A stretch of 20,156 nucleotides of DNA from a virus: positions 1 to 20,156 of the IMG/VR virus record IMGVR_UViG_3300044700_000003. The stretch is one strand, 5' to 3'. The notes beneath the pieces are model-generated. The model was given only the letters and a program-made list of their open reading frames with translations, searched no databases and was not told the origin of the DNA. This document shows positions 1 to 20,156 of the stretch, one piece after another. A program made the position numbers and the translations under genes. Within the stretch, counting starts at the first letter, position 1. Each line of letters begins with the position of its first letter.

Positions 1-131
1 ACAGCATTGCGCTATCTAGCCAACGATCACCCGGCCCAATTGAGTTAGCGCGCTGCATGGTTTGGGCAGCAGCTTTAACCAGCCGCCCCACGTCATCTGG
101 CAAACCTATGCTTGTGGTTTCTAACGGCTAA
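1..131 (+). CDS. terL: Large terminase, C-terminal fragment (cut by window edge)
   Basis: The first base is the second position of a codon. From base 3 the frame reads 42 residues to TAA at 129-131. The amino-acid sequence is identical to the last 42 residues of the complete terminase at 12590-14344, although the bases differ at several silent sites (for example 62 and 113). It is therefore the tail end of a second, slightly different copy of the same HNH-terminase gene. Its presence directly upstream of the portal shows that the terminase-portal order holds on both sides of the 14.2 kb period. Nothing upstream is visible, so whether this copy also carries the HNH domain cannot be said. Confidence 0.9.
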   Translation, partial: SIALSSQRSPGPIELARCMVWAAALTSRPTSSGKPMLVVSNG

Positions 132-235
132 CATCACATTGGCATCGGCTCGATGGCTTGCTTATCGTCGGGATACCGCATCGCATACCGGGCCGATGCC
201 ACCACAAATGACACCGACTGTGGCACACTCATAGC
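132..235. other. Terminase-portal intergenic region with conserved nested stem-loop
   Basis: This 104-base gap contains a perfect 9-base inverted repeat, GGCATCGGC at 141-149 and GCCGATGCC at 192-200. A second 5-base pair of arms lies inside it (CGATG 151-155, CATCG 179-183). Bases 114-208 are identical in the other copy at 14327-14421, while 209-215 just beyond the stem has changed. A non-coding stretch more conserved than the flanking genes suggests a functional RNA or DNA structure, such as a packaging site, an mRNA processing site or a translational control element. Which of these cannot be told from sequence. Confidence 0.6.
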
Positions 236-1357
236 ATGGCATTTTTTAACAAAGTAACTAAAGCCGCTATTAGCCCACCAGCAGGCAAGGCCGCTGCAGC
301 CGGCACAGGTTACACAGGGCCATATGCGCCGTCAGCCAACAACGGTGGCGCTGCAATGGTTGGCGTTTATTACAACTACACAGAGGGCGAAGCACGCAAC
401 GCGGCTATGTCTGTGCCAACTGTTAGCCGTGCGCGCGATCTGATCGCATCGGTTATTGGCTGTATGCCATTGCGCGCTTATTCGGAAATGTGGAACGGCG
501 AAACAATGGAAAAAGTGCCACAAGCGCCACGCACTTGGCTACGCCGTATTGACCCAACTGTGCCTAACAATTTTATTATGTCATGGACTTTTGACGATCT
601 GTTTTTTTATGGGCGCGCATTTTGGTATGTCACGTCACGCAGTAAAACTGATGGTTACCCTGCATCGTTTACACGTTTGCCAGCGTCAATGGTGCAAACA
701 TTAGACCAGTCTGGCCCTGTGTGGTTTGCGCCGTCTAAGCAAATTATTTTTAGTGGTGGCGAGTTAGACCCAAACGATGTGGTGCAGTTTCTGTCACCTA
801 TTCAGGGCATCACGTCTATGTCAACACAGTCTGTTGCCACCGCGCTAAAACTTGAGGCTGCACGGTTTCGCAACGCATCAAGCGCTATTCCAGCCGGCAT
901 TCTTAAGCAGACTGGTGGCGAACCGCTTAACGCGCAAGAGTTGGCAGACCTTGCGTCAGCGTTTAATTCAGCGCGCATGACTAACCAGACGGCGGCTTTA
1001 AACGAGTATTTGTCTTATACGGAAACGAGCACTTCACCGGACAAGATGTTGCTTATCGACTCTGCAGAGTTTCAGGCAATGGAAATGGCGCGCTTGTGCA
1101 ACGTGCCACCATATTTAGTGGGTGTGTCTGTAGGCAGTTATTCCTACCAGTCAAGCAGTGAAAGCCGCGCCGATCTGTGGACATTTGGCGCGCGCGCTTA
1201 CGCCGATTGCATAGCCGGCACACTTAGCCAAAACAATGTTTTGCCTAATGGCACATACGTTGACTTCGATGTAGAAAGTTATCTCATGGGCGATTACAGC
1301 GAGCACAACGACATGGCGCAACCAAACAACAACGAAAGTGTAGTATCACCAACATGA
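236..1357 (+). CDS. Portal protein (HK97-like)
   Basis: At 373 residues this is within the range for HK97-type portal proteins, the dodecameric ring at the capsid vertex through which DNA is packaged and to which the tail attaches. The family-like segment near residues 59-80 (SVPTVSRARDLIASVIGCMP) and the later LCNVPPYLVGV near residue 290 support this, as does its place between terminase and protease/capsid. No Shine-Dalgarno precedes the ATG. The start is fixed by comparison: an upstream TTG frame is open in the other copy but is stopped here by TGA at 209-211. The stop overlaps the next start as ATGA (1354-1357), indicating translational coupling. I read portal from motif style and position, not from a search. 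Confidence 0.88.
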   Translation: MAFFNKVTKAAISPPAGKAAAAGTGYTGPYAPSANNGGAAMVGVYYNYTEGEARNAAMSVPTVSRARDLIASVIGCMPLRAYSEMWNGETMEKVPQAPRTWLRRIDPTVPNNFIMSWTFDDLFFYGRAFWYVTSRSKTDGYPASFTRLPASMVQTLDQSGPVWFAPSKQIIFSGGELDPNDVVQFLSPIQGITSMSTQSVATALKLEAARFRNASSAIPAGILKQTGGEPLNAQELADLASAFNSARMTNQTAALNEYLSYTETSTSPDKMLLIDSAEFQAMEMARLCNVPPYLVGVSVGSYSYQSSSESRADLWTFGARAYADCIAGTLSQNNVLPNGTYVDFDVESYLMGDYSEHNDMAQPNNNESVVSPT

Positions 1358-2937
1358 TCAAACTTATTGCATCACAGGTCACAATTGACGCTGCAGCTGG
1401 TGAGGCTGGCCGCCGTGAGATTACAGGTATTGCCGTACCGTATGGTGTTGCCGCAACGGTTGCTGATGGCACGTCAGTGATCTTTGAGCAGGGCAGCCTG
1501 CCAGTTGACGGCAAAGCACCTCGTCTTTATCTCAATCACCAATCTGATAACGCCATTGGCATTGTTACTGAGCGCGTTGACACGCCAGAGGGAATGTTGT
1601 TTACGGCCAAGATCAGCAAAACACAGGCTGGCGATGAGGCTTTAATCCTTGCTATGGATGGCGTTTTAGACAGTGTGTCGGTAGGCGTAAACCCGATCAA
1701 GTACACCACCGCTAAAGACGGCACAGTGACTGTGACCGCCGCCGATTGGATTGAGTTAAGCCTTGTGCCAGTACCAGCGTTTGCAGGTGCGATCATCACC
1801 GACATTGCAGCGAGTATCCCACAAGACGAGCCAGAAATAAGTACTATAGAAACAGAACCTACACAGGAGACAGAACCCATGAGCGAAGCAACCATCCCAG
1901 CAGTCGAGGCAACCATCCCAACTGCACCAATTTTTGCACAAGCAAAACGCAAGTTTGCTATGCCATCGGCAGGCGAATACTTGGCAGCAATGCACGCAGG
2001 CGGAGACACATTCCACAACGTCAACGCTGCATACAAAGAAGCCGTGCGCGATCAGCAAACAGCATTGCAAGCCGCAGCTGGTGACATCCTCACCACCGAT
2101 ACACCGGGTCTTTTGCCAGTGCCGGTACTTGGGCCAGTGTTTCAAGACCTCAACTTTGTGCGACCAGTTGTTACCGCGTTTGGTGCACGCTCAATGCCAA
2201 ACACACCTAGCAAAACTTTTGTTAGGCCAACAATTACCACGCACACAAGTGCCGCAACACAAACCGAAGGCTCTGCAGTTAGCGCAACCACAATGGTGAT
2301 TGCATCAAACACTGTTACAAAGTCAACGGTTGCTGGTCAAGTCACAATGACAATGCAAGACATGGACTTTACTGATCCAGCGTCAATGAACATTGTGCTC
2401 AATGACCTTGCAGGCGAGTACCTGATTAAGACCGATGACATTGCAGCCGATGCACTTGTTGCAGGTAAGACAGCATCAGGCTCAACATGGACAGTCACCG
2501 CTGGTGACCCAACATCGTTAATCAACTCTTTGTATGACGCAGCACGCGAAATTACAGAGGACAGCAACTACTTCCCAACACACTTGTGCGTGTCACCAGA
2601 CGTGTGGGAAAAGTTAGGTGCACAGTTGGATTCAAGCAAGCGCCCAGTTTTGGGTTACACCACAAACGGTGTGCTTGGACAAAACGCGTTGGGTCGAGTA
2701 GGCGGAATGGGTTACAGCGACATGGATGTAATGGGCCTCAAGCTTGTTGTTGATAACAACTTTGCAAGCGGCACAATGCTTGTTGTTTACGCACCGGGCT
2801 TTGAGATTTACGAAGCACAACAAGGTGTTTTGTCAATCGCTAACCCATCCACATTGAGCCGCACGTTCTCTTACTACGGTTACTTTTCAACATTTGTTGC
2901 CAAGTCATCGTTCATTCAGGGCATCGTAATCGCTTAG
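1354..2937 (+). CDS. Capsid maturation protease fused to major capsid protein
   Basis: The 527-residue product has two parts. Residues 1-155 resemble HK97-type prohead serine proteases (peptidase U35): a His in LNH (H62), a Ser in the SVSVG segment (S109) and the WIELSLVPVPA block (E134) match the usual His, Ser and acidic positions. After a Glu/Thr/Pro-rich linker (about 156-175) comes an HK97-fold-like capsid domain, about 200-527, ending in a segment about the reactivity and stickiness of subunits (YEAQQGVLSIANPSTL). The protease would process capsid subunits during head assembly. An internal ribosome site and ATG at codon 176 suggest that free capsid protein is also made. Fusion of these two functions occurs in some small actinophages. 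Catalytic residues are assigned by eye. Confidence 0.85.
   Translation: MIKLIASQVTIDAAAGEAGRREITGIAVPYGVAATVADGTSVIFEQGSLPVDGKAPRLYLNHQSDNAIGIVTERVDTPEGMLFTAKISKTQAGDEALILAMDGVLDSVSVGVNPIKYTTAKDGTVTVTAADWIELSLVPVPAFAGAIITDIAASIPQDEPEISTIETEPTQETEPMSEATIPAVEATIPTAPIFAQAKRKFAMPSAGEYLAAMHAGGDTFHNVNAAYKEAVRDQQTALQAAAGDILTTDTPGLLPVPVLGPVFQDLNFVRPVVTAFGARSMPNTPSKTFVRPTITTHTSAATQTEGSAVSATTMVIASNTVTKSTVAGQVTMTMQDMDFTDPASMNIVLNDLAGEYLIKTDDIAADALVAGKTASGSTWTVTAGDPTSLINSLYDAAREITEDSNYFPTHLCVSPDVWEKLGAQLDSSKRPVLGYTTNGVLGQNALGRVGGMGYSDMDVMGLKLVVDNNFASGTMLVVYAPGFEIYEAQQGVLSIANPSTLSRTFSYYGYFSTFVAKSSFIQGIVIA
1865..1881 (+). promoter_or_regulatory. Internal Shine-Dalgarno and start for separate capsid protein
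   Basis: AGGAGA at 1865-1870 lies 8 bases before an in-frame ATG at 1879, codon 176 of the fused gene, exactly at the junction between linker and capsid part. It is one of the best ribosome sites in the window, while the gene's own first ATG has none. Translation from here would give a 352-residue capsid protein. The surrounding 99 bases (1828-1926) are identical in the second copy at 16038-16136. Confidence 0.7.
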
Positions 2938-2941
2938 TCTG

Positions 2942-2960
2942 TAGCGGACTTAGACCGCTA
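2942..2960 (+). promoter_or_regulatory. Hairpin at the start codon of the head-tail adaptor gene
   Basis: TAGCGG (2942-2947) and CCGCTA (2955-2960) are perfect inverted repeats around a 7-base loop. They fill the gap between capsid stop and adaptor start, and the last A of the stem is the first base of the adaptor ATG. No ribosome site lies in front of that ATG. The element is unchanged in the other copy (17155-17173), so it may set adaptor yield relative to capsid. There is no T-run, so it is not a classical terminator. Confidence 0.5.
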
Positions 2961-3598
2961 TGGCCACATACAACACCGCTACAAAACAACTCATTAGCAA
3001 CTACGCGTGCATTAGCACGTTAGAGCCAACTGACATTGTTGTTGGGCAATCCATTACTGTTGCCTCTATTGGCGCACCGTTTAACGGCACGTTTACTGTG
3101 CTGGCGTTGCCACAGTACGAGTACACAGGACTTGACGCAACCACTGGCGAGTTTCTTTACAACGAGGATGTAGCACGGCCTAACCAGATCATCTACGCCG
3201 CTACAGGTAGCAATGTTGAGTACGCAGCGTTTTATGCCGGCACTGTGGTGTACACGCAGTCATGCACATGGATTACAACGGCAGATTTGATCACATACTT
3301 GGGCGTAACGATCACGAACCCATCAGACGATTACACGCTTGCGGTACAGGCGCGCAACGCTGGCAACGATTTTTGTTATCGCCGTAGGCAAGAGTCAGGC
3401 TATTTTGACAGCCTTACCACCTCACCGGGTCACGATGCCACGCTAGGGACTTTGATGTATGCGGCAGCGTTGTGGCGTAGTCGAGGCAGCATAGAGACTG
3501 CGTATGCAGCGTTTGACACAATGGGCACACCAACGCAACAGTCATTAACACCGATCGTTAAGCAATTGTTGGGTATCCCCCGACCAGCGGTTGCCTAA
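2960..3598 (+). CDS. Head-tail adaptor (gp6-like connector) with N-terminal beta-rich domain
   Basis: The 212-residue product has a C-terminal part (about 105-212) with the style of HK97 gp6-like adaptors, which sit beneath the portal ring. A segment on helices (TTADLITYLGVTITNPSDDY, then a run with FCYRRR) and a late MYAAALWRSRGS helix are typical. Residues 1-105 form an additional beta-rich, low-charge segment not needed for an adaptor. Comparison with the second copy gives about 36 changes in the first 115 residues but only 2 in the last 97, so the two parts evolve very differently. The stop overlaps the next start as TAATG (3596-3600). The function is inferred from position and motif style. 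Confidence 0.7.
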   Translation: MATYNTATKQLISNYACISTLEPTDIVVGQSITVASIGAPFNGTFTVLALPQYEYTGLDATTGEFLYNEDVARPNQIIYAATGSNVEYAAFYAGTVVYTQSCTWITTADLITYLGVTITNPSDDYTLAVQARNAGNDFCYRRRQESGYFDSLTTSPGHDATLGTLMYAAALWRSRGSIETAYAAFDTMGTPTQQSLTPIVKQLLGIPRPAVA

Positions 3599-3966
3599 TG
3601 CCTGCACCGTACACAGACTTACTAAACGAGGCCATAGACGATGTAGCAGCCACGCTGACAGCCGTAAGTGGTCTGCGCGTAGTTACTGACCCCACAAAAC
3701 TTGTGCCCAATTGCGTGTTTCTACTTGCGCCAAGTTTTACGACATACGCAGGTAACGGCAACATTGTGACTATGGATTTCCCGCTTAAAGTTGTTGGCTC
3801 TGGGCCTGCAGGGTTGCCAGTGTTGCGCGAGATTTTAAGCATTGTTGCGTTAGTGCTGGCATCGGCTGTAATCGTGTTAGACGGCAGACCCGGCTCAATT
3901 GACATTGGTGGCGCATCGTTTCCGTGCTATGACTTGACAATAAAGGTGCAGGCACAGACCGCATGA
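3598..3966 (+). CDS. Probable tail terminator / head-tail joining protein
   Basis: The 122-residue product lies between the adaptor and the tail tube gene, where siphophages encode stopper and tail-terminator proteins. An N-terminal helix (PYTDLLNEAIDDVAATLTAV) is followed by beta-rich segments and a closing strand (CYDLTIKVQAQTA), the mixed alpha-beta pattern usual for tail terminators that cap the tube at the head end. No diagnostic motif is visible, so stopper is an alternative. It starts inside the previous stop (TAATG) and ends as ATGA with the next small gene (3963-3966). The copy at 17811 has the same length and few residue changes, mostly near residues 90-105. Confidence 0.5.
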   Translation: MPAPYTDLLNEAIDDVAATLTAVSGLRVVTDPTKLVPNCVFLLAPSFTTYAGNGNIVTMDFPLKVVGSGPAGLPVLREILSIVALVLASAVIVLDGRPGSIDIGGASFPCYDLTIKVQAQTA

Positions 3967-4133
3967 TCTACACAATTGCATCTACCAAACTTGGCATTAT
4001 CGGTGACCCCTACGTGCCAGCTGACGGCATCAACGTGGCAGCGCTCTTGTCTGGCGGTTTCATTGTTGAGCAATCCACACCTAAACCTAAAAAACCTGCT
4101 AAAACTAATACAGAACCCAACGAGGAGATTTAA
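3963..4133 (+). CDS. Small conserved structural-module protein, 56 aa
   Basis: This short gene starts in an ATGA overlap and stops at TAA 4131-4133, just ahead of the tail tube gene. The product has a hydrophobic first half (MIYTIASTKLGIIGDPY) and a charged Lys/Pro/Glu tail (TPKPKKPAKTNTEPNEEI). In the second copy the same 56-residue frame is kept with two residue changes (V18 to L, N49 to S), which supports that it is translated. Its place suggests a head-tail joining or tail-assembly factor, but I do not recognise the family. Its last codons contain the ribosome site of the next gene. Confidence 0.75.
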   Translation: MIYTIASTKLGIIGDPYVPADGINVAALLSGGFIVEQSTPKPKKPAKTNTEPNEEI

Positions 4134-4141
4134 CGCACATG
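4123..4141 (+). promoter_or_regulatory. Strong ribosome site for the tail tube gene
   Basis: AGGAGA at 4123-4128 lies 10 bases before the ATG at 4139. Most genes here have no such site and depend on coupling, so a strong site in front of the tube protein fits its need for many copies. It is kept at 18336-18341. Confidence 0.7.
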
Positions 4142-4549
4142 CCTACCAGCACCTACCTATCTAACCCAGTAGTCACGGTTAATGCCGTTGACCTCACAGA
4201 CCAGACCAGCGCGTCAACCCTGACTCGCGTGATCGAGGCATTGGAAAGCACATCGTTTGGCAAGACCGCACGCGTCTATGTTGGCGGCCTAGAAAACAGC
4301 ACATTGACTTTGACGATGTACAACAGTTTTGCTGCCACAGAGACTTACGCAACATTGGCTGCACTTGTAGGCACATCCACAACGGTGACGATCAAACCAA
4401 CCAGCGCGGCAACCAGTGCAACAAACCCAATCTCAACCTTGACAGGCTGCTACCTAGAAACCTTGCCAATTGTTAACGCCACACTAGGCGCGCTAGACAC
4501 AATTGACATTACGTTCACTGGTGGCGTTTACTCAGTCGCAACTTCTTAA
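4139..4549 (+). CDS. Major tail (tube) protein
   Basis: The 136-residue product is rich in Thr, Ser and beta-branched residues, with alternating strands (STLTLTMYNSF, TVTIKPTSAA, DTIDITFTGGVYSV), as expected for the gp17-like tail tube fold that polymerises into the hollow tail. It stands directly before the tail chaperone pair, the standard place for the tube gene, and has one of the few strong ribosome sites in the window. At 136 residues it is on the short side for the family, fitting a minimal phage. The second copy differs at only three residues (P2A, A97P region, T to A near 119). The 36 bases that follow hold only a weak AGG before the next start. Confidence 0.75.
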   Translation: MPTSTYLSNPVVTVNAVDLTDQTSASTLTRVIEALESTSFGKTARVYVGGLENSTLTLTMYNSFAATETYATLAALVGTSTTVTIKPTSAATSATNPISTLTGCYLETLPIVNATLGALDTIDITFTGGVYSVATS

Positions 4550-4585
4550 AAACAGCCGGCAACGGCCCGACACGAAAGCAGGCAC

Positions 4586-4879
4586 ATGAAAGTCAAATTA
4601 GAATTAGACCTACAAGACGGTCGCGGCACACGCACCATGACCACAAATATGTTTGTGGTATGTGAATGGGAAAAACTAGAAAACCGCAAGGTTTCTGATG
4701 GCAAAGGTATCGGTTACAGCGACATCGCTTGCTGGGCATATCACCTCTGCAAGCTGGCTGGTGACACTGTGCCGGACACGTGGCGCGAATGGGTTAAACA
4801 GCATCCCAACATGGACTTGACATCAGTTGATGAGACAAACCCAAACCCTACAGCGTTGGCACTTACCGAAGACAACTAG
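4586..4879 (+). CDS. Tail assembly chaperone, short form (gpG-like)
   Basis: The 97-residue product is the un-shifted form of the tail assembly chaperone pair that coats the tape measure before the tube polymerises. It is acidic and helical with a conserved-looking core (WEKLENRKV, DIACWAYHLCK, WREWVKQ). Near its 3' end two slippery heptamers allow ribosomes to move back one base into a second frame that stays open to 4986. This layout, right after the tube gene and before the tape measure, is the well known conserved arrangement in siphophages. The second copy differs at only two residues. The ribosome site is weak (AGG about 5 bases before ATG). Confidence 0.85.
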   Translation: MKVKLELDLQDGRGTRTMTTNMFVVCEWEKLENRKVSDGKGIGYSDIACWAYHLCKLAGDTVPDTWREWVKQHPNMDLTSVDETNPNPTALALTEDN

Positions 4880-4986
4880 CAGAAATGCTGGTAGCAGTAG
4901 GATGGTGGCCAACGCACATCGAGTTTGACACACGCGACCTCACTACGGTGATTAGTGTTATAGAAAAGAACAACAAGAACAGGTGA
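4586..4986 (+). CDS. Tail assembly chaperone, -1 frameshift fusion (gpGT-like)
   Basis: Reading 88 codons to 4849, slipping back one base and reading on from 4849 gives a 133-residue protein ending at TGA 4984-4986. The added 45 residues include RRQLAEMLVAVGWW and THIEF, closely like the T-domain segment of other phage chaperones, which binds tube subunits. The -1 frame has stops at 4828-4833, so the shift must occur between 4834 and 4879. The 112 bases 4829-4940 are identical in the second copy, including silent sites, as expected for an overlapping two-frame signal. The downstream part has an ATG at 4885 without a ribosome site, so separate translation is unlikely. Confidence 0.85.
4837..4849 (+). 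promoter_or_regulatory. Double -1 ribosomal slippery site
   Basis: Two overlapping X_XXY_YYZ heptamers lie in the zero frame: A_AAC_CCA at 4837-4843 and A_AAC_CCT at 4843-4849, sharing one A. Both lie inside the short window where a -1 shift would join the two chaperone frames. I could not identify a clear downstream stem by eye. They are unchanged in the second copy (19050-19062). Confidence 0.8.
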
Positions 4987-4992
4987 GTTTCT

Positions 4993-5481
4993 ATGACAGT
5001 CAACACGACAATTCAGGTGGCTGGCGTAAAAGAAACTATTAACGCACTCAAAAAGATTGACCCACAACTGCAAAAAGACTTTAGAACAAAAGCCAATGAG
5101 ATTGCACAGCCAGCAATTAACGCTGCAAAAGACGTGTACACGCAAGTGCCGTTGTCTGGTATGGCGTACAAGTGGTCTAGTCGAGGCCGTCAACTATTCC
5201 CGTTTAGCGTGGCTAAAGCCAAAAGCGGTGTGAAATTACGCATTGACACACGGCGCAACGCTGTAGGCGTAATCCTGATTGAGCAAAAAGACCCAGCGAC
5301 AGCAATCTTTGACACTGCTGGCCGCGCTAACGCAAACCGCTTAGGCGATCAGTTAGGTTTTGTTGGCGCAGGTCGCACACGTTTGATTGGGCCTGCCGTG
5401 TATAAAGCGCGGCGAGGTATTGAGGCTGAGATGGAAAAGATGATTTTAGATACGGCGCGCACAGTTAGGCAGGCAATGTAA
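4993..5481 (+). CDS. HK97 gp10-like tail-completion / neck protein (tentative)
   Basis: The 162-residue product opens with a strand and a helix pattern (VAGVKETINALKKIDPQLQK, then AINAAKDVYTQVPLSG) that resembles HK97 gp10-type neck or tail-completion proteins. It is basic and ends in a helix. A GGTGAG element ends about 5 bases before its ATG, overlapping the stop of the frameshifted chaperone. The stop overlaps the tape measure start as TAATG (5479-5483). Genes of this family normally sit before the tube gene. Here it stands between the chaperones and the tape measure, which is unusual. It could instead be a minor tail protein that I do not recognise. The second copy differs at four residues. 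Confidence 0.5.
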   Translation: MTVNTTIQVAGVKETINALKKIDPQLQKDFRTKANEIAQPAINAAKDVYTQVPLSGMAYKWSSRGRQLFPFSVAKAKSGVKLRIDTRRNAVGVILIEQKDPATAIFDTAGRANANRLGDQLGFVGAGRTRLIGPAVYKARRGIEAEMEKMILDTARTVRQAM

Positions 5482-6875
5482 TGCTGTCTATTCCGATCAT
5501 CTCAGAGTTTGACGGCAAAGGCATTGACAAAGCCATTAAGCAATTTAAGCAACTAGAAACCGTAGGCGAAAAAGCACAGTTTGCTATTAAAAAGGCTGCC
5601 GTACCTGCTGCTGCTGCGCTTGGTGCAGTCACTGCGGCTCTTGGTGCTGCGGTGGCTGCAGCTGCAGAGGATGAAGCACAAGCGGCAAACCTTGCGTTGA
5701 CATTAAACAACGTCACTGGCGCAACAGAGAAACAGGTCAAAGCAACTGAGGACATGATTAGCGCTATGTCAAGGGCTACCGGCACAGCTGACAGCGAGTT
5801 ACGCCCAGCGCTGGCAGTACTTGTGACTGGCACAAAAGACATTGCAACAGCAACAGAGGCATTGTCATTGGCGCAAGATATTGCTATTGGGTCTAACAAG
5901 TCACTTGCTGAGGTTTCTGATGCGCTAGCAAAAGCGTATGGTGGCAACATGAAAGGCCTACAAGCCTTGTCACCAGAGATTAAAGCCATGATCAAAGACG
6001 GCGCGACACTCGATGAGGTGATGAATGTCTTAGGCGGCACGTTTGGTGGTGCAGCCGCAACCGCAGCAGATACCGCTGCAGGTCGTTTTAAGATACTAAA
6101 AAACTCGTTAGACGAAACTAAAGAGTCAATCGGCGCGGCTTTGTTGCCAGCCGTGGAAAAGGTGTTGCCGTTTTTGCAAAAGTTTGCAGATTGGGCACAA
6201 AAAAACCCTGATGCATTTATAACTATTGCTGGCACAATTTCAACGGTCGCATTAGCAATTATGGCAGTTAACTTTGCAATGGCAGCAAACCCATTTACTT
6301 TAATTGCAACAGGCATTGCAGTTGTTGTAACTGGTCTAGCAATTGCTTACACAAAGTTTGAGGGTTTCCGTAACATTGTTAATAATGTTTTTAATGGAAT
6401 TATGGCAACTATGGAAGTGTTTGTAAACGCTTTTAACACAGTGTTAAACAGCATTATTTCTGCATACAACTTGGTTAACCCGTTTAACGACATTCCACTT
6501 TTGTCAACTAACGTCAATTTGCCACGCGCAAGTGGCAGTAGTAGTGCAGCGGCCGTTGGGTCTGGTGCAGCGCGTGAGGGCGGTGTAGGTCAAGTGTTGG
6601 CAAGTATGCCGTCTATGCCTAGCCCGTCAGCACCATTGGCTTTAGCACCATCGTCTAGTGGCGGTGGCGGTGGCATTTCTAAAGGCAGTCAAGGGCCCGG
6701 CTATAAAGCAGGTGCAAGCGGCAACAAGTTTGGCGGTGGCGTTGACGTGCAAGGCGGTTTCAGCATTAACATTTTTGGTGGCATTTCTACCAGCGCAGAA
6801 ATTGGCAAGTCTGTTGTTGACGCAATAGCCCAATACCAACAGGTTTACGGCCCAGTCAATTTTGCAACGATCTGA
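5481..6875 (+). CDS. Tape measure protein
   Basis: The 464-residue product is by position and composition the tape measure, which sets tail length and passes into the host envelope during DNA entry. It starts with an amphipathic helix region with an Ala-rich stretch (residues 40-65), continues with helical segments typical of the family (KGLQALSPEIKAMI, FKILKNSLDETKESIGAAL, residues 158-220), has a hydrophobic segment at about 245-290 able to span the membrane, and ends in a Ser/Gly/Pro-rich low-complexity part (350-425). At about 0.15 nm per residue the tail would be near 70 nm, at the short end for siphophages and in keeping with a minimal genome. The long frame on the opposite strand is a shadow of its Ala codons. 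Confidence 0.88.
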   Translation: MLSIPIISEFDGKGIDKAIKQFKQLETVGEKAQFAIKKAAVPAAAALGAVTAALGAAVAAAAEDEAQAANLALTLNNVTGATEKQVKATEDMISAMSRATGTADSELRPALAVLVTGTKDIATATEALSLAQDIAIGSNKSLAEVSDALAKAYGGNMKGLQALSPEIKAMIKDGATLDEVMNVLGGTFGGAAATAADTAAGRFKILKNSLDETKESIGAALLPAVEKVLPFLQKFADWAQKNPDAFITIAGTISTVALAIMAVNFAMAANPFTLIATGIAVVVTGLAIAYTKFEGFRNIVNNVFNGIMATMEVFVNAFNTVLNSIISAYNLVNPFNDIPLLSTNVNLPRASGSSSAAAVGSGAAREGGVGQVLASMPSMPSPSAPLALAPSSSGGGGGISKGSQGPGYKAGASGNKFGGGVDVQGGFSINIFGGISTSAEIGKSVVDAIAQYQQVYGPVNFATI

Positions 6876-12537: not shown

Positions 12538-12597
12538 ATGCAACGTCAACAACAGCAAACGAGAGCAAGCCGCTTGCGGCGCGGTAGCAATGGGTAA
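12538..12597 (+). CDS. 19-codon leader peptide overlapping the terminase start
   Basis: ATG 12538 is preceded by AAAGGA (12522-12527, 10 bases away). The product is 19 residues, rich in Gln and Arg (MQRQQQQTRASRLRRGSNG), and stops at TAA 12595-12597. The terminase ATG at 12590 lies 5 bases before this stop and has no ribosome site of its own, so ribosomes ending the leader could restart on the terminase. A hairpin at 12565-12577 lies within the leader. Translation is likely from the layout but is not proven by a second copy. Confidence 0.4.
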   Translation: MQRQQQQTRASRLRRGSNG

Positions 12598-14344
12598 AGA
12601 ACACAGCAACCCTGAGTACAAACGCAACCGGGCCATAATCCTGCAAGGCAAGCCAACGTGCAATTACTGCGACAAACCAGCAGACACCGTTGACCACATC
12701 GTTGCGTTAATGAACGGTGGCGATCACGGCTTAGACAATCTGCAACCATGCTGCGCGCAATGCAATAACCGCAAAGGTCACAGAGAGGTTGCACAACGCA
12801 ACCGATCAGTAAGCCACGCAAGAGCAGAAGCAATGCGAAATCATGCGACACCGATGCCAAAAGCAAAAGAGTTTTTTTATGAGAAACAAAACATCACCCC
12901 GACCCAAGTCTTGTCTATCCCAACTGGCCCTAACCAGCCCCAACTGGCAGCGATCGGTCACGCACGGCCACGATTAGAAACATCGAGACCAGATCATGTA
13001 GGTTCGTTCGCGCCGCAAGTTAGGGAATGGGCCAGCGAGCATCTAAATGTGCAGTTGATGGATTGGCAGTACACCGCGCTTGATGGTCAGCTGCTTTACG
13101 ATAAAAACTTTGAGTTAGTTAACCGTGTAAGCCTTGTTTCTACGGCGCGCCAGTGCGGTAAGACCACTGCGCTAACAGCTCTGATCGGTTGGTGGCTGAC
13201 AGAGATGCCTAAGATACGCGGCAAAAAACAGACCGTGCTATCTACCGCGCACCGGCTCGATCTGGCAGTAATGCTTTTTGACGAATTGTCACCGATCTTA
13301 GAGTCACGTTTTAACGCAACCCTAATGAAATCATACGGGCGTAACAGAGTAACAATGCCAGACGGCTCAACTTGGCTGGTGCGCGCTGCCAACAATTCTG
13401 TGGGTCACGGCACTAGCCCATCGCTGGTAGTGGCCGATGAAATGTGGGATATTTCGCGCGAAGTCATAGACGGCGGACTCTTGCCGGCTCAACGTGCACA
13501 AGTTTCACCGCTTTTGTCTATGTGGTCAACCGCTGGCACAGAGGCATCAACGGCAATGTTGCGTTGGCGTGAGCAAGGTTTGCGCGCCATTGACACAGGC
13601 AAAAACGCATCGTTTTATTTCGCCGAGTGGAGTCCGCCACCAGACATAAACCCGATGACACCAGAGGCATGGGTCTACGGCAACCCTGCTTTGGGCATAA
13701 CTCTTACGCCTGAAACATTGCTGGCAGAGTCTGAAAACCCTGATCGAGCAGCCTTTTTGCGCGCCAGTTGCAACCTATGGGTTGCGTCAGATAAGTCATG
13801 GATACAGCCGGGTCAATGGCCTGCCCTGCAGTATGACGGCGAGATACCTGACGGCGGCACGGTAGCCATAGAGACCAGCCTTGATGACACACGCTATTTT
13901 GCGGTGCGTTGCGTGGCTTTACCTGATCGGCGTACTGTGGCAACAGTCGAGTTTGTTGCAGACACTTTTAGCGAAATGTTGAGCCATGTTGAGCGCCTAT
14001 GCGCCAACCCACAGATCAAGTTTGCAATCACGCCAACGGTAGATAATCACTGGCCGTTATCGCTAGAGCGCCGCCGTGTTGTGGTGGGCTACGGCGAAAT
14101 ACTCAAGTTTACGCCATCAGTCAAAAACATGATTAACGAAAAGTTGCTATGGCATGACGGCAGCAACCAACTTGCCGAACACGTCAGCCGCGCCGTAGCA
14201 GTCAGATCACAAAACAGCATTGCGCTATCTAGCCAACGATCACCCGGCCCAATTGAGTTAGCGCGCTGCATGGTCTGGGCAGCAGCTTTAACCAGCAGAC
14301 CCACGTCATCAGGCAAACCTATGCTCGTGGTTTCTAACGGCTAA
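12590..14344 (+). CDS. terL: HNH endonuclease fused to large terminase
   Basis: The 584-residue product begins with an HNH nuclease domain: CNYC (C24, C27), VDHI (D35, H36), LDNLQP (N50) and CCAQCNNRKG (C55, C58, N59) give the four zinc Cys and catalytic His/Asn. After a linker (about 70-140) comes the terminase motor with Walker A-like STARQCGKT (184-192), Walker B SLVVADE (278-284) and coupling motif STAGT (313-317). The C-terminal RNase H-type nuclease is less clear, with E428, D432 and D485 as candidate metal ligands. In many HK97-like phages a separate HNH protein works with the terminase in cutting DNA; here the two are one chain. No small terminase gene is evident. The product pumps DNA into the head through the portal encoded next. 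Confidence 0.87.
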   Translation: MGKEHSNPEYKRNRAIILQGKPTCNYCDKPADTVDHIVALMNGGDHGLDNLQPCCAQCNNRKGHREVAQRNRSVSHARAEAMRNHATPMPKAKEFFYEKQNITPTQVLSIPTGPNQPQLAAIGHARPRLETSRPDHVGSFAPQVREWASEHLNVQLMDWQYTALDGQLLYDKNFELVNRVSLVSTARQCGKTTALTALIGWWLTEMPKIRGKKQTVLSTAHRLDLAVMLFDELSPILESRFNATLMKSYGRNRVTMPDGSTWLVRAANNSVGHGTSPSLVVADEMWDISREVIDGGLLPAQRAQVSPLLSMWSTAGTEASTAMLRWREQGLRAIDTGKNASFYFAEWSPPPDINPMTPEAWVYGNPALGITLTPETLLAESENPDRAAFLRASCNLWVASDKSWIQPGQWPALQYDGEIPDGGTVAIETSLDDTRYFAVRCVALPDRRTVATVEFVADTFSEMLSHVERLCANPQIKFAITPTVDNHWPLSLERRRVVVGYGEILKFTPSVKNMINEKLLWHDGSNQLAEHVSRAVAVRSQNSIALSSQRSPGPIELARCMVWAAALTSRPTSSGKPMLVVSNG

Positions 14345-14448
14345 CATCACATTGGCATCGGCTCGATGGCTTGCTTATCGTCGGGATACCGCATCGCATA
14401 CCGGGCCGATGCCACCACAAACCGCACGGACTGTGGCACACTCATAGC
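14345..14448. other. Terminase-portal intergenic stem-loop, second copy
   Basis: The 9-base arms GGCATCGGC (14354-14362) and GCCGATGCC (14405-14413) and the inner arms are kept without change. The first differences from copy one come just after the stem (14422-14428). Confidence 0.6.
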
Positions 14449-15567
14449 ATGGCATTTTTTAACAAAGTAACTAAAGCCGCTATTAGCCCACCAGCAGGCA
14501 AGGCCGCTGCAGCCGGCACAGGTTACACAGGGCCATATGCCCCGTCATCTAACAATGGCGGTGCTGCAATGGTTGGCGTTTACTACAACTACACAGAGGG
14601 CGAAGCACGCAACGCTGCAATGTCTGTGCCTACCGTTAGTCGAGCGCGCGACCTGATCGCATCGGTTATTGGCTGTATGCCATTACGGATGTATAACGAA
14701 ATGTGGAATGGCGATGAGATGGAGAAAATGCCATTAGCGCCGCGTACATGGTTGCGCCGTATTGATCCAACCGTGCCTAACAATTTTGTTTTGTCGTGGA
14801 CTTTTGATGATCTATTTTTTTATGGGCGCGCATTTTGGTACATCACATCACGCACCGCCGATGGTTTCCCAGCGTCATATACACGCCTGCCAGCCTCAAT
14901 GGTGCAGACCTTAGATCAGTCTGGCCCTGTCTGGTTTGCACCGTCTAAGCAGATCATTTTTAGTGGCGGCGAATTAAACCCTGATGACGTGGTGCAGTTT
15001 CTCTCACCTATTCAGGGCATCACGTCAATGTCGCAGCAGTCAGTTGCCACTGCGCTAAAACTTGAGGCTGCACGGTTTCGCAACGCATCAAGCGCTATCC
15101 CTGCTGGCATCCTTAAGCAGACTGGTGGCGAGCCGTTAAACGCACAAGAGTTAGCAGACCTTGCGTCAGCGTTTAACGCAGCGCGCATGACTAACCAGAC
15201 CGCAGCACTTAACGAGTATTTGTCGTACACAGAAACCAGCACTAGCCCAGACAAAATGCTGCTTATTGACTCTGCAGAGTTTCAGGCAATGGAAATGGCG
15301 CGCTTGTGCAACGTGCCACCATATTTGGTGGGCGTGTCGGTAGGCAGTTATTCCTACCAGTCGAGTAGTGAGAGCCGTGCCGATCTGTGGACATTTGGCG
15401 CTCGCGCTTATGCCGATTGCATAGCCGGCACACTCAGCCAAAACAATGTGCTACCTAACGGCACTTATGTCGAGTTTGATGTTGAGGGTTATTTGATGGG
15501 CGATTACAGCGAGCGTAACGAAATGGCACAACCTGAGTCTTACGATGAGGTACAGTCGCAATCATGA
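14449..15567 (+). CDS. Portal protein, second variant
   Basis: The 372-residue product is colinear with the portal at 236-1357. About 30 residues differ, clustered near residues 79-95, 130-150 and at the extreme C-terminus, where the last ten residues are almost wholly different. One codon is missing near residue 137. The start is set at ATG 14449. A TTG-initiated extension at 14371 would add 26 residues but is closed by a stop in the first copy and crosses the conserved stem-loop. The stop overlaps the next start as ATGA (15564-15567). The role is as for the first copy: the vertex channel for DNA. Confidence 0.87.
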   Translation: MAFFNKVTKAAISPPAGKAAAAGTGYTGPYAPSSNNGGAAMVGVYYNYTEGEARNAAMSVPTVSRARDLIASVIGCMPLRMYNEMWNGDEMEKMPLAPRTWLRRIDPTVPNNFVLSWTFDDLFFYGRAFWYITSRTADGFPASYTRLPASMVQTLDQSGPVWFAPSKQIIFSGGELNPDDVVQFLSPIQGITSMSQQSVATALKLEAARFRNASSAIPAGILKQTGGEPLNAQELADLASAFNAARMTNQTAALNEYLSYTETSTSPDKMLLIDSAEFQAMEMARLCNVPPYLVGVSVGSYSYQSSSESRADLWTFGARAYADCIAGTLSQNNVLPNGTYVEFDVEGYLMGDYSERNEMAQPESYDEVQSQS

Positions 15568-17150
15568 TTAAACTTATTGCATCACAGGTCACAATTGACG
15601 CTGCAGCTGGTGAGGCTGGCCGCCGTGAAATTACAGGCATTGCCGTGCCGTATGACGTTGCCGCGACAGTTTCTGATGGCACAACTGTGATCATAAAACA
15701 GGGCGCTTTGCCAGTTGATGGTAAAGCACCACGCCTTTACATGAACCATGACGCAACTAACGCCATTGGCATTGTTACAGAGCGCGTGGACACGCCAGAG
15801 GGCATGATGTTTACGGCCAAGATCAGCAAGACTCAAAGCGGCGATGAGGCGCTCATTTTGGCCCAAGACGGCGTTTTAGATTCAGTCTCAATCGGTATAA
15901 ATCCAGTCAAGTACACCACCGCAAAAGACGGCACAGTCACAGTGACTGCCGCCGACTGGATTGAGTTAAGCCTTGTGCCCGTACCAGCGTTTGCCGGTGC
16001 AATCATTACCGACATTGCAGCGAGTATCCCACAAGAAGAGCCAGAAATAAGTACTATAGAAACAGAACCTACACAGGAGACAGAACCCATGAGCGAAGCA
16101 ACCATCCCAGCAGTCGAGGCAACCATCCCAACTGCATCAATTTTTGCACAAGCAAAACGCAAGTTTGTTATGCCAACCGCCGCCGAATACATGGCAGCAA
16201 TGCACGCTGGCGGAGACACATTCCACAACGTCAACGCCGCCTACAAAGAGGCTGTGCGCGATCAGCAAACAGCATTGCAAGCAGCTGCAGGCGATGTGCT
16301 TACCACTGATACACCGGGTCTCTTGCCAGTGCCGGTACTTGGGCCAGTGTTCCAAGACCTTAACTTTGTAAGACCAGTTGTTAGCGCATTTGGTGCACGC
16401 GCAATGCCAAACACACCAAGCAAAACTTTTACACGGCCAACAATCACCACGCACACAAGTGCTGCAGCACAAACTGAAAACACTGCAGTAAGCGCAACCA
16501 CAATGGTGATTGCAGCAAACACTGTCACAAAAACAACCGTTGCAGGTCAAGTCACGTTGACAATGCAAGACATGGACTTTACTGATCCAGCGTCAATGAA
16601 CATCATCCTTAATGACCTTGCAGGCGAGTACCTGATTAAGACTGACGACATTGCAGCAGATGCACTTGTTGCAGGTAAAACTGCATCAGGCTCGACATGG
16701 ACTGTGACAGCCAATGACCCATCAAGTTTGATTGAATCTTTGTATGACGCAGCACGCGAAATTACTGAGGACAGCAACTACTTCCCAACACATTTGTGTG
16801 TATCGCCTGACGTTTGGCAAAAATTGGGAAGCCAGCTTGACGGATCGAAGCGACCAGTTTTGGGTTACACCACAGACGGTGTAGTTGGTCAAAACTCAAT
16901 TGGCCGCGTTGGTGGTTTGCAGTACACCGGCATGGATGTATTTGGTTTAACGCTGGTTGTTGATAACAACTTTGCAAACGGCACAATGCTTGTTGTTTAC
17001 GCACCAGGCTTTGAAATCTACGAGGCTCAACAGGGCGTTTTGTCAATTGCCAACCCATCTACGTTGTCGAGAACTTTCTCCTACTATGGATATTTTTCAA
17101 CGTTTGTTGCCAAGTCATCGTTTATTCAGGGCATCGTAATTGCTCCCTAG
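15564..17150 (+). CDS. Capsid protease-major capsid fusion, second variant
   Basis: The 528-residue product keeps the protease residues (His in the MNH segment at 62, Ser in SVSIG at 109, WIELSLVPVPA) and the capsid part. One Pro is added before the stop. Differences are spread through the protease part, and in the capsid part they cluster around residues 415-470, where about 14 of 57 residues change, likely an exposed region. The internal AGGAGA (16075-16080) and ATG (16089, codon 176) are unchanged in sequence and spacing. This supports production of free capsid protein from the same gene in both variants. Confidence 0.85.
   Translation: MIKLIASQVTIDAAAGEAGRREITGIAVPYDVAATVSDGTTVIIKQGALPVDGKAPRLYMNHDATNAIGIVTERVDTPEGMMFTAKISKTQSGDEALILAQDGVLDSVSIGINPVKYTTAKDGTVTVTAADWIELSLVPVPAFAGAIITDIAASIPQEEPEISTIETEPTQETEPMSEATIPAVEATIPTASIFAQAKRKFVMPTAAEYMAAMHAGGDTFHNVNAAYKEAVRDQQTALQAAAGDVLTTDTPGLLPVPVLGPVFQDLNFVRPVVSAFGARAMPNTPSKTFTRPTITTHTSAAAQTENTAVSATTMVIAANTVTKTTVAGQVTLTMQDMDFTDPASMNIILNDLAGEYLIKTDDIAADALVAGKTASGSTWTVTANDPSSLIESLYDAAREITEDSNYFPTHLCVSPDVWQKLGSQLDGSKRPVLGYTTDGVVGQNSIGRVGGLQYTGMDVFGLTLVVDNNFANGTMLVVYAPGFEIYEAQQGVLSIANPSTLSRTFSYYGYFSTFVAKSSFIQGIVIAP
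16075..16091 (+). promoter_or_regulatory. Internal ribosome site for capsid protein, second copy
   Basis: AGGAGA at 16075-16080 and in-frame ATG at 16089 lie at the same position within the gene as 1865-1881, inside a 99-base identical run. Confidence 0.7.
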
Positions 17151-17154
17151 TCTG

Positions 17155-17173
17155 TAGCGGACTTAGACCGCTA
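17155..17173 (+). promoter_or_regulatory. Hairpin at adaptor start codon, second copy
   Basis: TAGCGG (17155-17160) and CCGCTA (17168-17173) with the same 7-base loop as in the first copy. The capsid stop has moved one codon nearer, yet the element itself is unchanged. Confidence 0.5.
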
Positions 17174-17811
17174 TGGCCACATACACAACAGCTAGTAAAC
17201 AACTACTTTCTAACTATGCGTGCATCAGCACGCTTGAGGAAGCAGAAATTGTTGTTGGCGAAACCATCACCGTTAGTGGATTGGCTGCGCCATTCTCAGG
17301 CTCTTTTAAGGTGCTTGACTTACCGCAGTACGAGTTCACTGGCGTTGACTCAACCACAGGCGAGTTTCAATTTAACCCTGAAGTGGCTCGACCAAATCAG
17401 ATCATCTACGCGTGTACTGGCAGCGCCGTTAACTATGTAGTTGATTACTCAGGCAGTGTGGTGCATACACAAAACTGCACATGGGTCACGGTTGCCGAAC
17501 TGATCACCTACTTAGGCGTAACCATCACCAACCCGTCAGATGATTACACGCTTGCCACACAAGCACGCAACGCTGGCAACGATTTTTGTTATCGCCGTAG
17601 GCAAGAGTCAGGTTATTTTGACAGCCTTACAACGTCACCGGGTCACGATGTCACGCTAGGCACGCTGATGTATGCGGCAGCGCTGTGGCGTAGTCGAGGC
17701 AGCATAGAAACCGCTTATGCAGCGTTTGACACTATGGGCACGCCAACGCAACAGTCACTAACACCGATCGTTAAGCAATTGTTGGGCATCCCCCGACCAG
17801 CGGTTGCCTAA
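17173..17811 (+). CDS. Head-tail adaptor, second variant
   Basis: The product has the same length (212 residues) as the first copy. Residues 1-115 differ at about 36 positions, while 116-212 differ at two (V129T, A160V). The C-terminal gp6-like part, which must fit the portal and stopper, is thus nearly fixed, and the N-terminal beta-rich domain varies freely. No indels occur despite this. The stop overlaps the next start as TAATG (17809-17813). The division suggests either a more exposed N-terminal domain or replacement by recombination. Confidence 0.7.
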   Translation: MATYTTASKQLLSNYACISTLEEAEIVVGETITVSGLAAPFSGSFKVLDLPQYEFTGVDSTTGEFQFNPEVARPNQIIYACTGSAVNYVVDYSGSVVHTQNCTWVTVAELITYLGVTITNPSDDYTLATQARNAGNDFCYRRRQESGYFDSLTTSPGHDVTLGTLMYAAALWRSRGSIETAYAAFDTMGTPTQQSLTPIVKQLLGIPRPAVA

Positions 17812-18179
17812 TGCCCGCACCATACACCGACCTACTGAACGAGGCCATAGACGATGTAGCAGCCACGCTGACAGCCGTAAGTGGCTTGCGCGTGGTCACT
17901 GACCCAACTCGATTAGTTCCTAATTGCGTTTTCCTACTTGCGCCAAGTTTTACGACCTACGGCGGTAACGGCAACATTGTGACTATGGATTTCCCGCTTA
18001 AAGTTGTTGGGTCTGGGCCTGCAGGTCTGCCAGTGTTGCGCGAGATTTTAAGCATTGTCGCATTGGTGCTGGCATCTAAAGTCATCGTGCTATCTGGTCA
18101 ACCGGCATCTATTGAAATTGGCGGCGCATCATTTCCGTGCTACGACTTGACAATAAAAGTGCAGGCACAGACCGCATGA
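17811..18179 (+). CDS. Probable tail terminator, second variant
   Basis: The 122-residue product is colinear with 3598-3966. Changes are few and lie mainly at residue 33, near 50 and at about 90-105 (KVIVLSGQPASIEIGG against AVIVLDGRPGSIDIGG). It keeps the ATGA overlap with the small gene that follows (18176-18179). The assignment rests on position, as for the first copy. Confidence 0.5.
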   Translation: MPAPYTDLLNEAIDDVAATLTAVSGLRVVTDPTRLVPNCVFLLAPSFTTYGGNGNIVTMDFPLKVVGSGPAGLPVLREILSIVALVLASKVIVLSGQPASIEIGGASFPCYDLTIKVQAQTA

Positions 18180-18346
18180 TCTACACAATTGCATCTACCA
18201 AACTTGGCATTATTGGAGACCCTTATTTGCCAGCTGACGGCATTAACGTGGCAGCGCTATTGTCTGGCGGTTTCATTGTTGAGCAATCCACACCTAAACC
18301 CAAAAAACCTGCTAAAACTAGTACAGAACCCAACGAGGAGATTTAA
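18176..18346 (+). CDS. Small conserved structural-module protein, second variant, 56 aa
   Basis: The frame starts in an ATGA overlap and stops at TAA 18344-18346. It matches the 56-residue product at 3963-4133 except for V18L and N49S. A longer in-frame start at 18137 lies inside the previous gene and is not preferred. Unchanged length with mostly silent base changes supports translation. The function is unknown. Confidence 0.75.
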   Translation: MIYTIASTKLGIIGDPYLPADGINVAALLSGGFIVEQSTPKPKKPAKTSTEPNEEI

Positions 18347-18351
18347 CCCAC

Positions 18352-18762
18352 ATGGCTACCAGCACCTACCTATCTAACCCAGTAGTCACCGTTAATGCCG
18401 TTGACCTGACAGATCAGACCAGCGCGTCAACCCTGACTCGCGTGATCGAGGCGTTAGAGAGCACATCGTTTGGCAAGACCGCACGCGTCTATGTTGGCGG
18501 CCTAGAAAACAGCACGTTGACTTTGACGATGTACAACAGTTTTGCCGCCACAGAGACTTATGCAACTTTGGCTGCACTTGTAGGCACATCCACAACGGTG
18601 ACAATTAAACCAACCAGCGCGGCAACCAGTCCAACAAACCCAATCTCAACTTTGACAGGCTGCTACCTAGAAACCTTGCCAATTGTGAACGCCGCATTAG
18701 GCGCGCTAGACACAATTGACATCACGTTTACTGGTGGCGTTTACTCAGTCGCAACGTCTTAA
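18352..18762 (+). CDS. Major tail (tube) protein, second variant
   Basis: The 136-residue product differs from the first copy at three residues only, although the DNA carries more silent changes. This is the low protein divergence expected for a subunit that must polymerise. Its strong ribosome site AGGAGA (18336-18341, 10 bases upstream) is kept. It is followed by the same 36-base spacer before the chaperone gene. Confidence 0.75.
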   Translation: MATSTYLSNPVVTVNAVDLTDQTSASTLTRVIEALESTSFGKTARVYVGGLENSTLTLTMYNSFAATETYATLAALVGTSTTVTIKPTSAATSPTNPISTLTGCYLETLPIVNAALGALDTIDITFTGGVYSVATS

Positions 18763-18798
18763 AAACAGCCGGCAACGGCCCGACACGAAAGCAGGCAC

Positions 18799-19092
18799 AT
18801 GAAAGTTAAATTAGAATTAGACCTACAAGACGGGCGCGGCAAGCGCACAATGACTACAAATATGTTTGTGGTATGTGAATGGGAAAAACTAGAAAACCGC
18901 AAAGTCTCTGACGGCAAAGGTATCGGCTACAGCGACATTGCTTGCTGGGCATATCACCTATGCAAGCTGGCTGGTGACACCGTGCCAGACAACTGGCGCG
19001 AATGGGTTAAACAGCATCCCAACATGGATTTAACTTCAGTCGATGAGACAAACCCAAACCCTACAGCGTTGGCACTTACCGAAGACAACTAG
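18799..19092 (+). CDS. Tail assembly chaperone, short form, second variant
   Basis: The 97-residue product differs at two residues (T15K and T65N) from the first copy. It keeps the zero-frame stop at 19090-19092 and the slippery region upstream of it. The role is as for 4586-4879: coating the tape measure during tail assembly. Confidence 0.85.
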   Translation: MKVKLELDLQDGRGKRTMTTNMFVVCEWEKLENRKVSDGKGIGYSDIACWAYHLCKLAGDTVPDNWREWVKQHPNMDLTSVDETNPNPTALALTEDN

Positions 19093-19199
19093 CAGAAATG
19101 CTGGTAGCAGTAGGATGGTGGCCAACGCACATCGAGTTTGACACACGCGACCTAGTTACGGTGATTAGTGTTATAGAAAAGAACAACAAGAACAGGTGA
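18799..19199 (+). CDS. Tail assembly chaperone, -1 frameshift fusion, second variant
   Basis: A -1 shift at 19050-19062 gives a 133-residue fusion ending at TGA 19197-19199. The T-domain segment (AEMLVAVGWW, THIEF) is identical to the first copy up to the DL/T change near residue 119. The window 19042-19153 is identical in bases to 4829-4940, including silent positions, as expected where two frames and a frameshift signal overlap. Confidence 0.85.
19050..19062 (+). promoter_or_regulatory. Double -1 slippery site, second copy
   Basis: A_AAC_CCA (19050-19056) and A_AAC_CCT (19056-19062) in the zero frame, identical to 4837-4849. Confidence 0.8.
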
Positions 19200-19205
19200 G
19201 TTTCT

Positions 19206-19694
19206 ATGACAGTCAACACAACAATTCAGGTGGCTGGCGTAAAAGAAACTATTAACGCACTCAAAAAAATTGACCCGCAACTGCAAAAAGACTTCAGGAC
19301 AAAAGCCAACGAGATTGCACGGCCAGCAATTAACGCTGCAAAAGACGTTTACACGCAAGTGCCGTTGTCTGGTATGGCATACAAGTGGTCTAGTCGAGGC
19401 CGCCAATTGTTTCCGTTTAGCGTGGCTAAAGCCAAGAACGGTGTCAAGTTGCGTATTGACACCCGGCGCAATGCTGTAGGCGTAATCCTGATTGAGCAAA
19501 AAGACCCTGCAACAGCAATCTTTGAGACTGCAGGCCGTGCTAACGCAAACCGTTTAGGCGATCAGTTAGGTTTTGTTGGCGCGGGTCGCACTCGACTAAT
19601 AGGGCCAGCCGTGTATAAAGCGCGGCGAGGTGTAGAGGCTGAAATGGAAAAGATGATTTTAGATACAGCGCGCACAGTTAGACAGGCAATGTAA
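19206..19694 (+). CDS. HK97 gp10-like tail-completion protein, second variant (tentative)
   Basis: The 162-residue product differs from the first copy at four residues (Q39R, S77N, D107E, I139V region). It has the same GGTGAG before its ATG and the same TAATG overlap with the tape measure gene (19692-19696). The unusual place between chaperones and tape measure is shared by both variants, so it is a stable feature of this phage type and not a local rearrangement. Confidence 0.5.
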   Translation: MTVNTTIQVAGVKETINALKKIDPQLQKDFRTKANEIARPAINAAKDVYTQVPLSGMAYKWSSRGRQLFPFSVAKAKNGVKLRIDTRRNAVGVILIEQKDPATAIFETAGRANANRLGDQLGFVGAGRTRLIGPAVYKARRGVEAEMEKMILDTARTVRQAM

Positions 19695-20156
19695 TGCTGT
19701 CTATTCCAATTATTTCAGAGTTTGACGGCAAGGGCATTGACAAAGCCATTAAGCAATTTAAACAATTAGAAACTGTTGGTGAGAAAGCACAGTTTGCTAT
19801 TAAAAAGGCTGCCATTCCTGCTGCTGCTGCGCTTGGTGCAGTCACTGCGGCTCTTGGTGCTGCGGTGGCTGCAGCTGCAGAGGATGAAGCACAAGCCGCA
19901 CAGTTGGCATTGACTTTAGGCAATGTCACTGGAGCTACAGAGAAACAGGTCAAAGCGACTGAGGACATGATCAGCGCTATGTCAAGGGCTACCGGCACGG
20001 CTGACAGCGAGTTACGACCAGCGCTTGCGGTACTTGTGACTGGCACAAAAGACATTGCAACAGCAACAGAGGCATTGTCATTGGCGCAAGATATTGCTAT
20101 TGGGTCTAACAAGTCACTTGCTGAGGTTTCTGATGCGCTAGCAAAAGCGTATGGTG
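19694..20156 (+). CDS. Tape measure protein, N-terminal part (cut by window edge)
   Basis: The frame is open from ATG 19694 to the window end, giving 154 residues that match the N-terminus of the tape measure at 5481. Differences are few (V41I, N70Q, N76G). The last 127 bases are identical to the first copy. The gene is incomplete only because the sequence ends, not through mutation. Confidence 0.88.
   Translation, partial: MLSIPIISEFDGKGIDKAIKQFKQLETVGEKAQFAIKKAAIPAAAALGAVTAALGAAVAAAAEDEAQAAQLALTLGNVTGATEKQVKATEDMISAMSRATGTADSELRPALAVLVTGTKDIATATEALSLAQDIAIGSNKSLAEVSDALAKAYG

Follow-up and report, generated by a model that had tools for sequence, protein, structure and literature searches.

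Organization of the viral record and the fusion gene

The window, meaning the whole stretch of DNA analyzed, is a viral record of 20,156 bases in which a small siphovirus-like unit occurs as two variants ~14.21 kb apart (Table 1). IMG/VR sample 3300044805 supplied close matches to both copies: contig L003 to copy 1 (99.97%) and contig L031 to copy 2 (99.79%). The 20-kb record thus has the appearance of an assembly that ran round a circular or permuted genome via two strains. In an ORF at 12590-14344, the N-terminus is an HNH endonuclease domain, and a weak, below-cut-off match to a terminase large-subunit nuclease lies behind it.

A fusion gene encoding a prohead protease, a linker, scaffold-like helices and a probable HK97-type major capsid protein is located directly downstream of the portal gene, with the tape measure gene further downstream. 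The candidate connector downstream of the fusion gene had no PHROG match. The fusion protein matched Peptidase_S78 above the Pfam cut-off (residues 49-149) and Phage_capsid_4 just below it (residues 247-483, 23.8 vs 27 bits), and its PHROG matches were phrog_2263 (major head protein, E 8.7e-90) and phrog_80 (head maturation protease).

Table 1. Positions of the features in the 20,156-base window.
Feature	Position	Strand	Basis or remark
Strain-variant copies	1-5934 and 14438-20140		head to tail, one ~14.21-kb unit
Portal gene	236-1357		directly upstream of fusion gene
First start, ATG overlapping portal stop as ATGA	1354..1357	+	no SD core
Fusion gene, copy 1 (527 aa)	1354..2937	+	ORF, Pfam, PHROG
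Protease domain, residues 20-153	1411..1812	+	AlphaFold2 pLDDT and structural alignment
Lowest synonymous divergence of the gene, codons 160-179	1831..1890	+	observed/expected and permutation
Internal Shine-Dalgarno AGGAGA, copy 1	1865..1870	+
Proposed nested capsid gene, copy 1 (from ATG 1879; short tail, scaffold-like helices, capsid domain; 352 aa)	1879..2937	+
Predicted helices, candidate scaffold/delta domain, within residues 206-243	1969..2082	+	low-confidence model
Tape measure gene	5481-6875		downstream of fusion gene
Fusion gene, copy 2 (528 aa)	15564..17150	+	ORF
Internal Shine-Dalgarno, copy 2	16075..16080	+
Proposed nested capsid gene, copy 2	16089..17150	+

The protease part was modeled confidently by AlphaFold2 (pLDDT ~76-91 per 10-residue block, residues 21-150). 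In VIA-align comparisons it resembled the varicella-zoster virus protease 1vzv (Z 12.7, 113 residues, rmsd 2.3) and T4 gp21 (Z 10.7, 119 residues, rmsd 2.5), and the model indicates an assemblin fold, as of an S78-type prohead protease. Model confidence was very low for residues 154-205, which probably form a disordered linker. The predicted helices behind it are, by analogy to HK97, a candidate scaffold/delta domain. The capsid-part models reached a pLDDT of 42 and 31 with shallow alignments, a PDB sequence search with the capsid part gave no match, and the HK97-type capsid call is based on the PHROG and Pfam profiles.

The internal start signal

The initial annotation had proposed that an internal ribosome site splits the fusion into two products. 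The AGGAGA motif was located as described, 8 nt before the in-frame ATG at 1879-1881, which is codon 176 of the ORF. The site had been placed exactly at the linker-capsid junction; this was slightly off, since it lies inside the linker, where ~22 residues separate it from the protease domain and ~30 from the first predicted helix of the model. The two window copies were indeed identical over exactly the 99 bases from 1828 to 1926. This run is the longest in the gene but only the fourth longest in the 5.95-kb overlap (127, 112, 112, 99), and we therefore rejected it as proof of an internal start. The strength of the Shine-Dalgarno (SD) sequence was rejected as proof as well, because a site this strong appeared in 13-77% of synonymous linker resamplings (p 0.13-0.77), within the synonymous null for the Glu-rich linker peptide.

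Conservation of the site in related viral loci

A total of 114 database loci were fetched, 113 of them on viral contigs and the remaining one on a bacterial MAG contig; both window copies bring the number to 116. The viral contigs came from overlapping sets, the best 80 of 148 and the best 80 of 452 relatives, while the genome-contig search gave one relative, L116, a MAG contig labelled Proteobacteria. A start codon preceded at a suitable distance by an SD core (4 nt or longer) was present in 116/116 loci (ATG in 85, GTG in 31), which are mutually related, so that these counts are not independent. The linker peptides varied between loci (e.g., TQETEP, EEVTE, QKDTTP, QKDKD, QEKI and PEEPE), and the SD was spelled by different codons and in different registers. 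Exchanges between ATG and GTG changed the residue yet preserved the start.

Of 19 distinct junction contexts, 17 had an SD core of 5 nt or more; among 605 distinct contexts around other internal ATGs, 5 did. The sequences compared are again related rather than independent. By hybridisation energy, the junction start had the best SD of all in-frame ATG, GTG and TTG codons in 63 of 82 genes and not in the other 19. These comparisons point to an internal in-frame start with a ribosome site that appears to be under selection.

Constraint on silent sites

Synonymous divergence, normalised for amino acid, was calculated in 20-codon windows for three nested sequence sets. The minimum of the gene fell at the internal start in relatives, and this check, suggested in the initial annotation, argues strongly for the two-product reading. 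Observed/expected values at codons 160-179 were 0.017 for 32 distinct sequences of at least 90% identity, 0.117 for 48 sequences of at least 80% identity and 0.24 for all 66 full-length sequences, and 0 of 20,000 permutations reached this minimum in each set. The same codons ranked 360th, 492nd and 502nd of 508 windows in protein conservation in the three sets. A recent sweep or protein constraint does not explain the dip, the silent bases being frozen where the protein drifts. The constraint spans the SD, the start and ~35 nt upstream.

A second synonymous dip (codons 391-405, window 2524-2568) lay at 0.35-0.52 of expected, and neither a start nor an SD is evident there. The dip at the internal start was independently replicated in the Microbacterium EE-type family, whose synonymous minimum fell at codons 153-172 around M163 (20 sequences, permutation p 0.005). 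The six sequences of the AN-type family showed no synonymous dip at the start.

RNA structure at the internal start

The region from -40 to +20 of the internal start had an MFE of -1.2 kcal/mol, compared with 60-nt window means of -11.8 (copy 1) and -11.6 (copy 2). No window was weaker in copy 1 and 0.5% were weaker in copy 2. The structure at the first start was ordinary, with 9% and 31% of windows weaker in the two copies. Among isolates, the internal start belonged to the weakest 5% of windows of its own gene in 18/23, and in 11/14 representatives, the latter including both window copies. Low structure went beyond the synonymous null (p <= 0.05) in only 8/23 isolates. The GTG-start lineages L062, L070 and L084 had no low structure at the internal start.

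The first start and the portal gene

According to the initial annotation, the first ATG lacks an SD. This held for both window copies (core score 0) but not across the family: of the 102 related loci with enough upstream sequence, 47 carried an SD core of 4 nt or more there, so relatives do not all share a poor first site. The ATGA overlap of the first start with an upstream ORF (80 codons or longer) was found in 91/102 related loci, and in 13 of 15 isolate genes with the portal annotated as upstream neighbour. Because of this overlap with the portal stop, synthesis of the fusion is probably tied to translation of the portal.

Candidate internal starts in fusion genes of cultured phages

Twenty-four small-genome fusion genes were hand-picked for diversity from three tblastn searches, which matched 217, 79 and 170 phage records. 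By eye, 21 of these 24 small actinophage fusions carried a plausible internal site at the protease/scaffold junction, in unrelated linkers. The plausible internal starts, given as fusion residues, were found in Quaker (163), MooKitty (172), Atraxa (165), Root (178), Maggie (160), Schiebs (226), McGonagall (276), GRU3 (262), Coeur (307), BlueFeather (204), RRH1 (274), GMA5 (265), Kels (176), Penoan (160), Efeko (168), BonaeVitae (161), BurtonThePup (166), Namsahir (167) and Adaia (162), and as weak sites in Yavru (197) and Whytu (196). The fusion of OR067381 (Pseudomonas phage Hadban) was 65% identical to that of the Arthrobacter phage MooKitty, and its host label looks odd.

A blind rule was also applied, in which the first ATG after the protease motif was taken and the SD ignored; SallySpecial has no such ATG, leaving n=23. 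In 21/23 genes this ATG had a spaced SD core (4 nt or longer), compared to 30/144 other internal ATGs (Fisher 7e-11, kinship ignored). With one representative per lineage, the values were 12/13 and 21/87 (3e-6). The start of Adaia is the second ATG and fails the rule.

No convincing internal site was seen in SallySpecial (L127), Emperor (L140) and EricDab (L123), the last of which has a weak AAGG only and passes the blind rule. The initial annotation had named related phages lacking the site as evidence against its reading; the site was kept in all 116 loci and in the 21 isolate fusions, and was missing from these three, so that it is not found in every such fusion. The fusions of SallySpecial and Emperor have a short Ala/Pro-rich linker. 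These two phages may set the ratio of protease to capsid another way. Among EE-type viral contigs the start was present in 14/15, L158 having only a doubtful GTG. It was present in 6/10 AN-type loci; of the others, L166 was without it, L167 and L168 do not extend past the linker and L169 is without the protease part.

In large-genome fusions, an ATG with a strong SD was located just before the scaffold-like region in 4/4 cases (Circum 165, Gordon 241, Camille 171 and Count 254). Circum-type fusions (474 relatives in viral contigs; L170-L249, L141-L144) often had two internal SD and ATG sites, one before the scaffold part and one before the 'NVFD' of the capsid part, which suggests three-tier genes. 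The family alignment comprised 68 distinct genes with a protease part. The Met before NVF(D/E) had an SD core of at least 5 nt in 52/58 genes vs 30.0 expected, and of at least 7 nt in 22 genes vs 7.0 expected. For the scaffold Met, which was picked for the best SD, a core of at least 7 nt was present in 6/15 vs 0.7 expected. All linker ATGs taken together showed a modest excess of SD cores (57 vs 45.9 expected for at least 5 nt, 40 vs 25.2 expected for at least 6 nt).

Two proposed products from one gene and alternative explanations

Judged from the sequence comparisons, the internal start is very likely real and broadly conserved, and the two-product interpretation of the initial annotation is supported. 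We consider it highly probable that one gene gives two in-frame products, a minor protease-scaffold-capsid fusion and a major, internally started capsid subunit. What the sequence data show is a conserved start signal, selection acting on silent sites, weak RNA structure and the arrangement of the domains; initiation at codon 176, the ratio of the products, the coupling to the portal and the processing are inferred, as follows. Ribosomes finishing the portal would re-initiate inefficiently at the overlapping ATGA and make the minor full-length protein. Others would bind the unstructured internal site with its own SD and start at codon 176, giving as the major product a 352-residue capsid subunit that carries a scaffold region at its own N-terminus. 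The fusion would co-assemble via its capsid/scaffold part, bringing a limited number of proteases inside the procapsid, and the packaged proteases would then trim the scaffold region off both products. The short product is probably a capsid precursor whose own scaffold-like N-terminus of ~70 residues (176-246) is removed by the protease. Since the protease would trim this N-terminus, mature virions may show no N-terminus near residue 176, and virion mass spectrometry alone could miss the short product. The mass-spectrometry table of PMC4524720 might include peptides that cover the fusion of GRU3 or GMA5.

The conserved silent sites could instead mark an internal promoter. In that case the capsid segment would have a separate mRNA, on which the SD serves as an ordinary ribosome site. 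The constraint begins ~35 nt before the SD and takes in ACTATAGAAAC, a sequence similar to a -10 element that has exact copies only at the two junctions. However, a scan of positions 1-5000 for sigma-70-type promoters found 4 against 4.2 expected, none of them at the site, and in an informal look no -10-like element was noticed in GC-rich isolates. We regard a promoter as unlikely; if true, it would add to internal initiation rather than replace it.

It is less likely still that only the full-length fusion is made and that capsid subunits are freed by proteolysis in the linker, with the SD-like sequence a by-product of its Glu/Gln-rich composition. The SD strength within the synonymous null, the existence of Emperor and SallySpecial as phages without the site and the presence of an S78-type protease are all compatible with it. 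However, silent bases stay fixed in the stretch of greatest protein variation, ATG/GTG exchanges hold the start while the residue changes, and each subunit would bring a protease into a small head.

Another DNA or RNA function of the constrained region (a packaging site, an overlapping gene or an RNA element) with a fortuitous start appears very improbable: the constraint does begin before the SD, and 74/110 loci have no stop in the -2 frame over codons 131-230, but the other 36 do, the synonymous dip is confined to the start region and the start itself is kept in unrelated linkers. An overlapping gene in particular was rejected, the other frames not being consistently open.

Comparison with known systems

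The small actinophage fusions (Orlajensenviridae/cluster EE, AN, AX, FE, CW and RRH1) are the same kind of fusion, in most cases with the same post-portal layout, and share the internal start in the 21 of 24 examined. As in these phages, the window encodes an S78-type protease followed by a capsid protein in one frame, and the gene order is terminase, portal, fusion and head-tail/tail genes; their genomes measure 14-18 kb and the unit here ~14.21 kb. In the available portions of PMC7302621 and PMC5513430 a 'major capsid and protease fusion protein' is described as a single fusion protein with no mention of an internal start, and the latter compares the fusions with HK97 and lambda. The portions of PMC10793303, PMC12760985 and PMC11953736 that were available likewise mention no internal start in such fusions. 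No description of an internal start in a protease-capsid fusion was found in the literature searched, which was mostly without subscription papers and supplements.

In lambda C/Nu3, the protease gene has a nested in-frame start for the scaffold, the C-terminal part is made in excess and the protease is the rare longer form. The proposed arrangement is the same in its internal in-frame initiation and in the protease as the rarer longer form. The nested product of lambda is scaffold only and the capsid is a separate gene, whereas the nested product here would be scaffold plus capsid. The frame from codon 176 continues through the capsid domain to 2937 and encodes no free scaffold of the lambda type. 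The gene of the window is thus one that 'works like' the lambda C/Nu3 type and is not a member of it.

Herpesvirus UL26/UL26.5 is a protease-scaffold gene with a nested in-frame short form, made from a separate transcript. It shares with the fusion a related protease fold (Z 12.7) and a nested in-frame short form, the latter proposed here, but has no capsid protein in frame, while here the capsid is in frame. PMC12005531 names UL26 and UL26.5 as scaffold genes.

HK97 has the components proposed here, the gp4 protease and the gp5 capsid subunit with its N-terminal delta domain. They are encoded by two separate genes, in contrast to the single gene here. According to PMC12749128, an HK97 prohead has 12 portals and about 60 proteases for its 415 capsid subunits, numbers which show the kind of protease:capsid ratio needed. 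Relative to the lambda and herpesvirus precedents, the new feature would be that the nested product is the capsid subunit itself.

Implications for tailed phages

We lean towards the view that the protease-capsid 'fusions' of tailed phages in general are stacked genes in one frame with two or three starts, the Circum-type genes having three tiers (with scaffold-plus-capsid and capsid-alone products), and the full-length protein being the minor one. Most phage records among the matches listed (217, 79 and 170 records) annotate the gene as one fusion protein. This annotation does not explain how a small head is kept from taking in a protease with every capsid subunit. The conserved internal start would supply a built-in stoichiometry switch and would correct the annotated capsid protein of many cultured phages. 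It would represent a compact, testable design for setting the protease:capsid ratio.
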